A DNA stretch of 64,000 nucleotides from Phycisphaerae bacterium (GTDB lineage: Bacteria; Planctomycetota; Phycisphaerae; UBA1845): assembly GCA_028289375.1 (NCBI GenBank), contig JANQQK010000062.1, forward strand, positions 1 to 64,000, read 5' to 3'. The position numbers and the translations under genes were made by a program. Each line of letters starts with the position of its first letter. The first letter of the stretch is position 1. Below are positions 19,471 to 40,011 of the stretch, one piece after another. Below the pieces are notes generated by a model. It worked only from the letters and a program-made list of their open reading frames with translations. It did not search any database and was not told the DNA's origin.

Positions 19471-20913
19471 TCAGGTCAGTGGATCGTTGAATGCTACCGC
19501 GCTACTGTGACGCGCCGTGACGGACGACGCAAGCAGGATAATGGTGATTTCGACGACGAGGCAGTTGGCCACCGGGAAAAGCCCGAAGTCGGGCAATCGC
19601 CACGCGCTTGGCCACCATGAATCGGGAAGGTAGTAGGTTGCGAGCAACAGGTGGCCTGCGAGGCTGCCGGCGACGATGGCGGGTCCGGTCGATCGTGGCC
19701 AATAGAACGCGGCGATCATCACGGGGATCATCAGTGTGTAGCCGCTGAATGCGTAGATGGAGATGTTGAAGATTGCTTCCGGTCGTGCCATCGCGACGGC
19801 GAACGCGATGGCGGCGATGACAACGACCGAGATGCGTCCCCAACGTCGCGCGTCGCCACTGCGATGGAACACATCGATCGACAGTAGCGTGGAGATGGTC
19901 AGCAGTTGCCCGTCGAGGCTTGACATGACGGCGGCGAGGATGGCGGCCAACCCGATGGCGGACAGCCAATCGGGCAGGTACTGCGCGACGAGCAACGGGA
20001 GAATGCCGTCCGAGGCTTTGCCCTGCAACCCGGGTTCGACGACGGCCCCCCAGACGCCGATCAGCGTGACGGGCAAGAAAAGCAGGATCAACGCGAGCGG
20101 GTAGATCTTGATCGTGCGTCGCAGCGACACGGCGTCGCGAGCGGCCAGCAGACGCATGAACATGTGCGGGAAGGCGATGATGCTGACCGGTCCGACGAGA
20201 AAGCCTGTCGCCCATTTTCCGGCGGGGAAATTGTGCATCGTCAGCAGGTCGGGGCGTTCTGCGACCAGTCGTTCGTGCAGGTGCGTCGCACCGCCGAGTT
20301 TGGTCGCAATGCCGACGCAGACCACAATCAGGAAGACGAGAAAGACACCTGCCTGAAAGACGTTTGTCCACGCCGTGCCACGCATGCCGCCGGCGCTGGT
20401 ATAGAAAACGGTGACGGCAGTGAGGACGCCGGCTGCCAACTCGTACGACACCGCGCCGTCGCTGAGTGTGTTGATCGCGATGCCGCCGCCCATGATGCCG
20501 ATGACGATGTAAGGCACCGTATACAATAGCATCAGTACCAGGGTCAGGTGGCCAACGGCGGGTGACTGCCAGCGGTCGGCGAACATCTGCGACGGGGTGA
20601 CGTAGCCGAACTGCTTGCCGAACTTCCAGATCGGGTAGCCGAGCAGAATGAAGACGATGGGTCCCCAGAAGGCGGCACTCGCGCCAAAGAAACCGAACAC
20701 ACCGACGCCCTGGTGGTAGGCTTTTCCGGGAAGACCGAGCAATGCGAACGCGGTCACGTTCGTGCCGAACAGCGCCATGAACAGCACGAGCGTGCCGAAG
20801 CTGCGGCCTGCGAGAAAGTAGTCCTCAGCCGACGCTGCGCCGGTCCGCGAACTGATCACGCCGATGGCGACCAGAATGCCCATGTAGACGATGCCGACGA
20901 CGAGCAGGGTCAA
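19471..20913 (-). CDS. Sodium:solute symporter (SSS family)
   Basis: A 480-residue membrane protein with about 13 hydrophobic helices and the SSS hallmarks AEDYFLAGRSFGTLV, TAFALLGLPGKAY and SAIGLAAILAAVMSSLDGQL. It imports an unidentified solute with Na+ (pantothenate/proline-like group). The start is taken as TTG at 20913: it overlaps the previous stop as TTGA and has GGAGGG seven bases upstream, and it leaves the first membrane helix intact. Longer readings would extend into the upstream gene. The small membrane protein upstream is a known type of partner for such carriers. Confidence 0.9.
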   Translation of the reverse strand: MTLLVVGIVYMGILVAIGVISSRTGAASAEDYFLAGRSFGTLVLFMALFGTNVTAFALLGLPGKAYHQGVGVFGFFGASAAFWGPIVFILLGYPIWKFGKQFGYVTPSQMFADRWQSPAVGHLTLVLMLLYTVPYIVIGIMGGGIAINTLSDGAVSYELAAGVLTAVTVFYTSAGGMRGTAWTNVFQAGVFLVFLIVVCVGIATKLGGATHLHERLVAERPDLLTMHNFPAGKWATGFLVGPVSIIAFPHMFMRLLAARDAVSLRRTIKIYPLALILLFLPVTLIGVWGAVVEPGLQGKASDGILPLLVAQYLPDWLSAIGLAAILAAVMSSLDGQLLTISTLLSIDVFHRSGDARRWGRISVVVIAAIAFAVAMARPEAIFNISIYAFSGYTLMIPVMIAAFYWPRSTGPAIVAGSLAGHLLLATYYLPDSWWPSAWRLPDFGLFPVANCLVVEITIILLASSVTARHSSAVAFNDPLT

Positions 20914-21137
20914 TCGCGCACCCTCCACGAGCCGCGCAGCAGCATCCAGCACGCCAACGTGCCCAGGCCGATCCAGACGAGGTGGTAGACGACGTCTGCC
21001 GGCAGCCAACCGAACAGGGCGGTGGTGCCATCAAACAGTGGCTGCCCGCGCGATGCGAACAGCCACTCTTCATTGTGCAGTATGACGGCGACGACGATCG
21101 CCACCGAACCGGCGATGCGCCAGCCGCGATCGCTCAT
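20910..21137 (-). CDS. Small membrane protein, DUF3311-like partner of the symporter
   Basis: A 75-residue protein with two predicted membrane helices (about 7-20 and 45-66). The segment PLFDGTTALFGWLPADVVYH lies between them. Small proteins of this shape (DUF3311 group) are commonly encoded immediately before SSS symporters. The stop overlaps the symporter TTG start, so translation is coupled. The start at 21137 leaves a 22-base gap from the thioredoxin gene upstream. Confidence 0.8.
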   Translation of the reverse strand: MSDRGWRIAGSVAIVVAVILHNEEWLFASRGQPLFDGTTALFGWLPADVVYHLVWIGLGTLACWMLLRGSWRVRD

Positions 21138-21159
21138 GATGCCAAGTGGTCCGGTCGGG

Positions 21160-21639
21160 TCATTGCAACAGTGCCTCGATCGCTTTCTGGACTTCCGGCA
21201 TGTCGAGCGTGCCGATGATGCCGAATTCCCTGGTGACCTTGCCATTGGCGTCGAGAAGGAAATTGGTGGGCAGCGCCTTGACGCCCCAATCATCGGCGAC
21301 ATCGCTGCCGTTCAGCAAAATCGGGTAGCTGACACCGCTGCGTCTGGCAAAGGTCGTGAGCAACTTGGCGTCCTCATTCCAGCAGTTCACCGCCACGACC
21401 CGAAAGCCGTTGTTCTTGTACTTGTTGTGCAACTCGACGAGGTGCGGAAACTCCGCACGACAGGGCGGTCACCCATGGGCGAAGAATGCCAACAGGATGG
21501 CTTTGTCCTGCTGCTTGCTGAGAGTGAACTCGCTTCCGTCGAGGTTGGTCAGCGTGAAGTCATCACGTGACGCGCAGCCGGAAAGGAGGGTCAACGACGC
21601 CACGGCGACACCGGCCCATCCCAGACGTTTGTGATTCAT
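21160..21639 (-). CDS. TlpA-like thioredoxin lipoprotein, probable selenoprotein (UPPC) with in-frame TGA
   Basis: Read from ATG 21639, the frame gives 159 residues if TGA at 21471-21469 (codon 57) is decoded. The N-terminus is a lipoprotein signal with lipobox LLSGC (Cys22). The redox site reads AFFAHG-U-PPCRAEFPHL, against the usual FWATWCPPCRAEFP, so the TGA stands exactly in place of the first catalytic cysteine. After it come VVAVNCWNED and the cis-proline strand ALPTNFLLD, all normal for TlpA/ResA. A hairpin fitting a bacterial SECIS follows the TGA. AAGGTG lies six bases before the ATG. Ordinary gene calling would report only a truncated piece from 21432. It would act as a membrane-anchored periplasmic thiol (selenol) oxidoreductase. 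A nonsense mutation is the alternative, but position and hairpin argue against it. Confidence 0.88.
21442..21471 (-). promoter_or_regulatory. Sec-encoding TGA codon with candidate bacterial SECIS hairpin
   Basis: TGA occupies 21471-21469. Downstream on the minus strand GTGCGGA-GTT-TCCGCAC (21458-21442) forms a perfect 7-bp stem with a 3-base loop whose first base is G, 18 bases after the TGA. Known bacterial SECIS elements place the loop about 16-37 bases after the codon with a G at the first or second loop position. It lies inside the coding sequence, as in bacteria generally. Confidence 0.8.
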
Positions 21640-21657
21640 GTTCCCCACCTTTCGTGG

Positions 21658-38388: not shown

Positions 38389-40011
38389 ATGGCGAAGATC
38401 ACGATAGACAATCGCGAGATAGAGTGTCGGGACGGTGTTCCGGTGCTTCAGGCTGCGTTGGAAGCAGGCTGGGATGTGCCGCACTATTGCTACCACCCGG
38501 GGTTGAGCGTGGTGGCGTCGTGTCGTTTGTGCCTGATGGAGATGCAGTTGCCGCATCCGAAGACGGGCGAGATGGGCTGGGCGCCGAAGTTGTTTCCCTC
38601 CTGTCAGACCCCGGTGAAGGATGGCATGGTGGTGCGTTTCGACTCGCCGCCGGTGGAGCAGAATCAGAAGGCGTGCATGGAGTATTTTCTGCTAAACCAT
38701 CCGCTTGATTGTCCTGTCTGCGATCAGGCGGGTGAATGCTATCTGCAGGACTACAGCTACAAATTCGGCGAAGCCACGTCGCGGATGCACGATCAGAAGC
38801 AGGTTAACCCGAAGAAAGACATCGGGCCCAAGACGCTGCTGTATTCGGATCGCTGCGTGATGTGCAGCCGGTGCGTACGGTTTGCCGATGAGGTCGCCGG
38901 CACTGGTGAGCTTTGCATTGTCAATCGCGGTGGCCGGGCGGAGATCGATGTGTTCCCGGGGATTCCGCTGGACAACCCGATGCAGGGCAACGTCGTGGAC
39001 ATCTGTCCGGTTGGGGCGTTGCTGGACAAGGAATTCCTGTTTGATCAGCGTGTGTGGTTCCTCAAGAGCGGGGATTCGATCTGTGCCGGGTGCAGCACCG
39101 GGTGTGCGATTCGGGTGGATCAGAACGACGACAAGGTGCATCGCCTCAAGCCGCGTTTCAACCCGGGCGTGAATGACTGGTGGATGTGCGACGAGGGGCG
39201 TTTCGGTTGGAAGTACATCCACGATCCGAAGCGCGTGACGCATCCGAAACTGCGTCGCGGCGCGGAAACGGAGACGCCGGCGTGGGAATCGGTCGATGAG
39301 ATTGTGACCTATCGATTCGAGCAGCAGGCAGCCAAGCATGGTGGGGAGAAGTTGGCGGTGCTGCTGTCGCCGATGATGGCGTGTGAAGAGGCGTGGCTGC
39401 TGGCGAAGTTCTTTCGCGCGGTGGCGCCCGAGGCCACGATTGCGACCGGGTTCGTGCCGACCGTCGAGGAGGATCAGTTCTTCCCGGTGGGCAGCGATGC
39501 CGAGAACGCGAAATTTGTGATTCGCCGTGAGAAGTGTCCGAATCGCCGCGGGATTGAATTGGTTGTGGAGCATTTTGGCGGCAACACGTGCGATTTTGAG
39601 ACGTTTGTGACACGCGCCGGCGAGGGGACGTTTGAAGCGGTCTGGGCGGTCGGTGGATATCCTGATGCGTGGGTGCCGAAACCGCTGGCTACCGCGATGG
39701 CGAAGATCGAGCTGCTGGTCGTGCAGGACATTTTCGAGAACGAACTGACGGCTGAGGCGGAATTGCTGCTGCCTGCATGTGCGTGGGTTGAACGTGATGG
39801 CAGTTTCGTGAATCATGCCGGTTTGATTCAGCCATTCGAGCGGGCGATCGGCGTGCCCGAGGGGGCGAAGCGTGATGGGCAGTATCTGTTCGCAGCCGCC
39901 GGTTTCGAAGGACTCTATTCGGGCGAGCGCGTTCGCGAGTTGATGGCTGAGGAGATGGACGCGTTTCGTGAGATTGCCGAGGCGCCGAAGAAGCCGGCGC
40001 ATCAGCATTGA
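38389..40011 (+). CDS. nuoG: NADH-quinone oxidoreductase subunit G
   Basis: A 540-residue subunit with every N-terminal Fe-S site: 2Fe-2S ligands in HYCYHPGLSVVASCRLC and SCQTPV, the His-Cys3 site HPLDCPVCDQAGEC, RCVMCSRCVRF with DICPVGAL, and an N7-type site CAGCSTGC plus WWMCDEGR. The molybdopterin-like C-terminal part is much shorter than in E. coli NuoG (about 900 residues), as in several other bacteria. The start at 38389 (MAKITIDN) is the natural domain start, though no good ribosome site precedes it. Confidence 0.95.
   Translation: MAKITIDNREIECRDGVPVLQAALEAGWDVPHYCYHPGLSVVASCRLCLMEMQLPHPKTGEMGWAPKLFPSCQTPVKDGMVVRFDSPPVEQNQKACMEYFLLNHPLDCPVCDQAGECYLQDYSYKFGEATSRMHDQKQVNPKKDIGPKTLLYSDRCVMCSRCVRFADEVAGTGELCIVNRGGRAEIDVFPGIPLDNPMQGNVVDICPVGALLDKEFLFDQRVWFLKSGDSICAGCSTGCAIRVDQNDDKVHRLKPRFNPGVNDWWMCDEGRFGWKYIHDPKRVTHPKLRRGAETETPAWESVDEIVTYRFEQQAAKHGGEKLAVLLSPMMACEEAWLLAKFFRAVAPEATIATGFVPTVEEDQFFPVGSDAENAKFVIRREKCPNRRGIELVVEHFGGNTCDFETFVTRAGEGTFEAVWAVGGYPDAWVPKPLATAMAKIELLVVQDIFENELTAEAELLLPACAWVERDGSFVNHAGLIQPFERAIGVPEGAKRDGQYLFAAAGFEGLYSGERVRELMAEEMDAFREIAEAPKKPAHQH

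Follow-up and report, generated by a model that had tools for sequence, protein, structure and literature searches.

A probable lipid-anchored, TlpA-like selenoprotein with a UPPC site in a Phycisphaerae bacterium

The DNA that we analyzed (the window) is a stretch of 64,000 nucleotides from a contig of a Phycisphaerae bacterium. On the minus strand, a frame runs from an ATG at 21639-21637 to a terminal stop at 21162-21160, which is a TGA; its sole internal stop is likewise a TGA, at codon 57 (21471-21469). The original prediction, that this interrupted frame is a single selenoprotein gene, was made from the sequence alone; our reading of the open reading frames found the same frame, broken by this TGA and by nothing else. 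The features of the locus are as follows.

21160..21639, minus strand: complete coding frame of 159 residues plus stop, with a predicted selenocysteine (Sec57) (ORF reading; full-length alignment with 26 homologues)
21645..21650, minus strand: likely ribosome binding site, AGGTGG, 5' of the ATG (by inspection of the sequence)
21574..21639, minus strand: signal peptide with lipobox LSGC (residues 19-22), whose Cys22 is the predicted lipidation site (Gly21-Cys22 invariant in 27 of 27 alignment rows)
21469..21471, minus strand: in-frame TGA, codon 57, a predicted selenocysteine that opens UPPC (TGA in 25 of 27 family loci, including the window gene)
21460..21462, minus strand: TGT codon, predicted resolving Cys60 of UxxC (invariant in the 27-row alignment)
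21442..21458, minus strand: predicted SECIS-type hairpin, with a 7-bp stem, the loop GTT, and a TGA-to-loop spacing of 17 nt (folding, conservation, and a control at Cys sites)
21163..21432 (21160-21432 with the stop), minus strand: 90-amino-acid fragment with a TTG start, called in place of the full gene, a mis-annotation (gene calling; protein database entry P0002)

The sequence on both sides of the internal TGA is TlpA-like, and the TGA replaces the first cysteine of a CPPC motif, as originally proposed: the Pfam domains AhpC-TSA (78.8 bits, residues 27-136) and Redoxin (75.2 bits, residues 27-138) both extend across it. We compared the read-through protein with 5.8 billion proteins; at E ≤ 1e-10 this gave 39 candidates, one of which was P0002, the 90-amino-acid fragment. 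The protein database represents the window gene by this TTG-start piece only, so the suspected mis-annotation is real. The in-frame TGA occupies a redox-cysteine position and homologues with cysteine exist, a pattern of bacterial selenoprotein genes. Downstream of the gene, a symporter frame (19471-21009) matches the SSF family, and a small intervening frame (20910-21302) has no match.

The hairpin (GTGCGGA-GTT-TCCGCAC) has 7 Watson-Crick pairs. Its stem begins at the 11th base past the TGA and the G of its loop is the 18th; the coordinates (21458-21442) agree with the hairpin that was first described. A model of bacterial SECIS elements, as given in the text of a recent catalogue, calls for a loop of 3-9 nt with a G within its first two positions, a stem of 4-16 bp, 16-37 nt between the TGA and the loop, and a minimum free energy of -7.5 or less (PMC13188914). 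The window's hairpin fits this model: it has a 3-nt loop (GTT), 7 bp, a spacing of 17 nt, and a minimum free energy of -12.3 kcal/mol when the 48 nt past the TGA are folded. Nevertheless, we rejected the hairpin as stand-alone evidence. When we scanned the window for a TGA with 30 open codons on either side and, in the geometry of a bacterial SECIS, a stem of 7 bp or more, we found 2 matches, versus 0-3 per sequence in ten Markov-1 random sequences, so the frequency of such hairpins is within chance. The other match, a TGA with a 7-bp hairpin at window position 38401 on the minus strand, lies in a spurious-looking frame, and we took it to be a chance occurrence. The case for a selenoprotein rests instead on the TlpA-like homology across the TGA and on the conservation of the codon and the stem, which exceed chance as the hairpin by itself does not.

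We searched 51 genomes from the same family and found matches in every one. Codon 57 was read in the best 27 loci, each from a different genome and with the window gene included; the remaining 24 genomes had lower-scoring best matches, L044-L046 among them, and were left out of this reading. Codon 57 is TGA in 25 of the 27 loci and encodes cysteine in the other two (TGC in G020 and TGT in G045), and all 27 rows share the lipobox Gly-Cys, residue 57 (U or C), and C60. No other stop lies within the frame in these 27 loci, or in the order-level TGA forms that we read. The original prediction had proposed to see whether relatives hold TGA or TGC/TGT at this codon, and that is what they hold. Among 298 genomes of the class that we searched, we read 6 further TGA forms belonging to a second family within the order, alongside Cys forms in G229, G080, and G280. 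In a sample of 392 genomes from the phylum, 29 gave matches at E ≤ 1e-38. There were 33 such matches, of which 28 held one TGA (including the window gene). Leaving aside the window gene, G615:C744, and G558:C165, we read 25 phylum-level TGA loci (L181-L208), all of them from outside the class. In these, the domain is near the C-terminus of a longer frame (448-651 residues in 24 of the 25, and 243 residues in one), and U is at the equivalent place. Together with the 31 forms from the family and the order, we read a total of 56 Sec (TGA) forms.

Both halves of the gene also appear to be under selection. Compared to a homologue from the same genus (68% identity), the window gene has 15, 8, and 34 differences at first, second, and third codon positions before the TGA and 24, 19, and 47 after it: both halves, on either side of the TGA, diverge most at third codon positions. 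Separately, the same family has longer TlpA-like frames with one internal TGA each (G016:C722, G034:C139, G015:C242, and G040:C54), which are possibly additional selenoproteins.

The full 7-pair stem is present in 28 of the 31 TGA forms from the family and the order, and in 50 of 56 once the phylum set is added; the loop starts with G in 54 of the 56. Three of the shorter stems have 6 pairs (L024, L038, and L203). L025, L202, and L193 have 5, 3, and 2 of the 7 pairs in the common register, and these may use other SECIS elements or be recent changes. Among the 49 distinct rows, 96.8% of the cells are paired, versus 90.1% in shuffled alignments and 31.8-70.0% if the arms are slid against each other. 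Changes on both sides of a pair account for 18 cells, as compared to 2.4 in the shuffles, and none of 500 shuffles equaled this. These changes fall in 3 of the 7 pairs, and two pairs hold 17 of the 18 cells; the third consists of one G-U cell in L193, a form with an otherwise broken stem. Compensatory changes are thus present at two of the seven stem pairs. The number of further pair types on the 49 rows was not above the shuffles (131 of 500 were as high). If we considered just the 31 rows from the family and the order, then the covariation score and the fraction of cells paired were above all 500 shuffles, while two counts, of pairs changed on both sides (300 of 500 as high) and of further types of pair (500 of 500), were not.

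As a control, we considered sites that encode the same peptide with cysteine (CxxCxxExPH). None of the 81 Cys sites, which come from 80 loci, has the full stem, and one site has 6 pairs; these loci, 80 of 144 Cys-pattern matches, belong to other phyla, whose codon usage differs, and because the scan used Cys patterns, it returned Cys forms only. Closer to the window gene, the Cys forms in G020 and G045 retain just 2 and 1 of the 7 pairs. Overall, the hairpin is conserved in most TGA forms, has compensatory changes, and is missing from the Cys forms examined, although some measures of covariation are within the range of the shuffles.

The original prediction also proposed a search for selA, selB, selC, and selD, and all four are present in the organism's own genome (4.99 Mb, 99.3% complete). 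The tRNA-Sec (selC) scored 67.8 bits (the gathering score is 47) and has the anticodon tca. SelA scored 548 bits, and SelB scored 328 bits, or 370.7 bits if a second stretch in the same frame is added. SelD (367 bits) is on a different contig from the window and has one internal TGA. selB (70102-71985) and selA (68708-70063) are adjacent on the window's contig. This pair (68708-71985) lies beyond the end of the window, roughly 47 kb from the TGA gene. The open frame of selB is 992 amino acids long, versus 614-753 amino acids in 39 of the 43 other family genomes with a match. The search for the tRNA-Sec family is imperfectly specific, as 5 of 14 control genomes had a hit above the cutoff; the organism's own genome has a second place above the cutoff, at 49.6 bits, where ARAGORN calls no tRNA-Sec.

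Across the family, selB was found in 44 of 51 genomes (E ≤ 1e-70) and, with stricter filters, tRNA-Sec in 40 of 51 (E ≤ 1e-9). Among the 25 family genomes with a TGA form, selB was found in 22 and tRNA-Sec in 20. Three of the exceptions (G016, G017, and G027) had neither a selB match at E ≤ 1e-70 nor a tRNA-Sec at E ≤ 1e-9, and these genomes are 63-83% complete. The other two, G037 and G039, lacked only a tRNA-Sec at E ≤ 1e-9 (97% and 92% complete). In the order's second family, selB was found in all nine of the genomes that we read, that is, the six with TGA forms and G229, G080, and G280.

The nearest solved structures in a profile search were ResA (4nmu, E = 5.1e-33) and 3kcm. We predicted a model of the protein in which Cys stands in for Sec (mean pLDDT of 89.8). 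The target-normalized TM-score of this model against ResA chains was up to 0.88, and GPX4 chains ranked lower in the fold search. The fold and the CxxC-type site, which is UxxC in the protein and was built with Cys in the model, place the protein among TlpA/ResA-like proteins. At the level of NCBIfam, none of the 18 models listed for the window protein reached its cutoff, and neither did any model for the four long phylum forms (of 25) that we compared to NCBIfam. In particular, the model for ResA (NF002854) gave 87.1 bits versus a cutoff of 170 bits, and the model for the ResA-like WAxxUGC selenoprotein (NF041054) gave 35.7 of 300 bits, with UPPC in the window protein as its motif. Thus, the protein is predicted to work like ResA or TlpA, yet we do not file it as ResA, because its NCBIfam score is below the cutoff.

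The genes nearby, as mechanically called ORFs in 21 loci, do not indicate a pathway or an operon. A cluster of antisense ORFs overlies the gene in 10 genomes. The next largest shared cluster is found in 6 of the 21 at varying distance; the four of its sequences that we inspected are dissimilar, and none of the six proteins contains CxxCH. Gene order is kept locally among the nearest relatives: the next upstream gene is common to 3 of the 21 genomes (G000, G042, and G037) and the second upstream gene to 5 of the 21, and the window's copies of both have no Pfam match.

Given these results, we consider it very probable that the window gene (minus strand, 21639-21160), with its single in-frame TGA opening a CPPC motif and a conserved predicted 7-bp hairpin after it, codes for a ResA/TlpA-like selenoprotein with a lipid anchor, the TGA being read as selenocysteine. 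Direct observation covers the frame, the codon, the sel genes, and, for the stem, its complementarity, its conservation, and its compensatory changes. The selenoprotein reading that was first proposed is therefore supported by the sel genes and by the conservation of the codon and the stem, with the hairpin by itself being within chance. Neither of the two outcomes that the original prediction named as counting against it, a genome without sel genes or relatives with random stops and frameshifts, was seen. We considered whether the TGA might instead be a nonsense mutation in a decaying gene, or a sequencing or assembly artifact, so that the cell makes at most the downstream fragment. This would account for the 90-amino-acid fragment being alone in the protein database, but it is largely refuted by the retention of the TGA in separate genomes (at codon 57, 25 of 27 family loci have it, as do 6 from the order, in frames that are otherwise open), and both halves differ most at third codon positions; we view it as exceedingly unlikely. 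It is also scarcely credible that the TGA encodes another amino acid, such as tryptophan under a reassigned code, or undergoes general readthrough, without any selenocysteine. The frame is indeed open if TGA is a sense codon, but TGA is the terminal stop of the window gene and of 7 other loci among the 27 from the family, homologues without the TGA have cysteine at this site, most TGA forms have the full stem while the Cys forms examined lack it, and selA, selB, selC, and selD are present.

Selenocysteine insertion competes with termination, and the segment before the TGA contains a complete lipobox, so a 56-residue lipopeptide could be the main product, with the TGA mostly terminating translation and the full-length protein as a minor, selenium-dependent product. 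We consider this quite improbable: beyond the lipobox pair, 10 of the 12 invariant columns are at residue 28 or later, mostly at or after the TGA, and the 27-row alignment gives no sign of an N-terminal peptide that is kept for itself. If the product is a selenoprotein, then what it does is less certain than what it is. It might be a lipid-anchored, peroxidase-like protein, or a thioredoxin-fold protein that handles selenium or a metal, in which case our claim of a selenoprotein would hold and its role would differ. The best Pfam matches are to AhpC-TSA and Redoxin, GPX4 chains do appear lower down in the fold search, and no neighbor ties the gene to a pathway. On the other hand, the site is UxxC with a second cysteine, and ResA is the nearest solved structure by both profile and fold, so we regard these other roles as possible but somewhat unlikely.

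As a ResA/TlpA-like reductase, the selenoprotein would probably be made and work as follows. SelB, with Sec-tRNA(Sec), would bind the hairpin and insert Sec57. The signal peptide would be cut and Cys22 would be lipidated, so that the thioredoxin-fold domain would be on the membrane and face the periplasm. The residue following the lipobox cysteine is alanine, and aspartate is found there in none of the 25 sites listed. In Escherichia, the sorting rule is that such a residue, other than aspartate, means the outer membrane; by analogy, this would be the location of the lipoprotein. The selenolate of Sec57 would attack a disulfide in the substrate, and Cys60 would resolve the mixed selenenylsulfide. 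Our guess is that a membrane transporter of the DsbD/CcdA type might then re-reduce the site. The substrate of ResA is apocytochrome c, and apocytochrome c or other disulfides of the envelope might be the substrates here as well. The genome holds one match to DsbD-TM and one to cytochrome c assembly, so a ResA-like path for electrons is possible.

Selenoproteins of this general kind have been catalogued. The text of a recent survey counts 119 prokaryotic selenoprotein families or subfamilies, including thiol-disulfide isomerase-like proteins (cd02966, UxxC) and UGC-containing TlpA (PMC13188914). Its Table 1 lists cd02966 UxxC as a predicted family and cites a study of the Sargasso Sea (PMC13188914), whose set includes four environmental thiol-disulfide isomerase-like sequences (PMC1088965). 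The term "Planctomycet" does not occur in the main text of PMC1088965, and neither that term nor "TlpA" occurs in the main text of PMC5029168. Other Planctomycetes are described as having the full Sec machinery and putative selenoproteins (PMC4807772). In the open literature without preprints, and largely from listings, we found no description of the window protein in Phycisphaerales-like bacteria. The original prediction knew of no description in this lineage, and that part stands, but UxxC TlpA-like selenoproteins as such were already on record in the survey and the Sargasso Sea set (PMC13188914; PMC1088965).

The window protein shares the TlpA-like domain class with the Sargasso Sea cd02966 family, as well as Sec at the first position of UxxC; the likeness is at the level of the published description of that family (representative MGB1650493.1), and the window protein's UxxC in a TlpA-like domain was judged from Pfam and the fold. 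The UGC-containing TlpA (NF041054, WAxxUGC) has the same TlpA/ResA-like fold with a Sec, but it has UGC where the window protein has UxxC. ResA (NF002854; 4nmu and 1st9) is the nearest solved fold, has a CxxC-type site, and is membrane-anchored, much as we predict for the window protein. The invariant glutamate of the family alignment is at what we take to be the position of Glu80 in ResA. Unlike ResA, the window protein has Sec instead of the first cysteine, glycine instead of the preceding tryptophan, and a lipoprotein signal, and it scores below the ResA cutoff. In eukaryotes, Sec insertion is a separate system. A TlpA selenoprotein is described in algae (PMC7539508); this is another Sec protein that is named TlpA, but it is eukaryotic and was reported with a hemerythrin domain (PMC7539508). 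The novelty here lies in the lineage, in the predicted form as a lipoprotein, and in the evolutionary depth; the kind of protein was already known. Because gene calling gives a fragment and no tested NCBIfam model reaches its cutoff, redox inventories of these bacteria would miss this conserved, predicted envelope protein.

The stem also appears to couple residues 62 and 66 of the protein. In the 56 Sec forms, these residues are A/H (40), V/H (4), E/H (4), K/Y (4), R/Y (2), A/F (1), or A/Y (1). By comparison, 96 of 120 listed database Cys proteins match the motif, and among these we counted at least 30 different pairs, with A/A (23) and A/H (15) the commonest. Kinship may explain part of this contrast between the Sec and Cys proteins, because the Cys proteins being compared include more distant relatives. 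A broader reading, on which we are evenly divided, is that the phylum has an unannotated, selenium-based, extracytoplasmic system for thiol redox chemistry, comprising short lipoproteins and long TlpA proteins, with one SECIS hairpin held so constant that the RNA determines the sequence of the protein. Under this reading, pairing between their codons in the stem is the reason that residues 62 and 66, in the active-site helix, vary in concert: Ala, Val, or Glu would go with His and Lys or Arg with Tyr (with two exceptions in 56), and the Cys relatives vary more. This suggests that a hairpin in coding RNA can constrain amino acids beside an active site, and methods based on covariation could mistake the result for contacts within the protein.

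We also considered the direction of change between Sec and Cys. A tree of 100 rows requires at least 21 changes between Sec and Cys, and 7 of these are forced by starred branches, with only 26 of the 94 inner branches being starred; the tree includes 37 Cys rows from the protein database (P0003-P0040 without P0022), whose codons were not seen. Two pairs of Sec and Cys sisters, L145/L151 and L148/L153, were verified on the DNA. The 56 Sec forms and these two well-supported pairs are a natural series with which to investigate what makes a predicted envelope reductase keep Sec or lose it. L151, the Cys sister of the TGA form L145, is one of two adjacent matches that are free of TGA (G229:C35:145934-146992), in a genome with selB.
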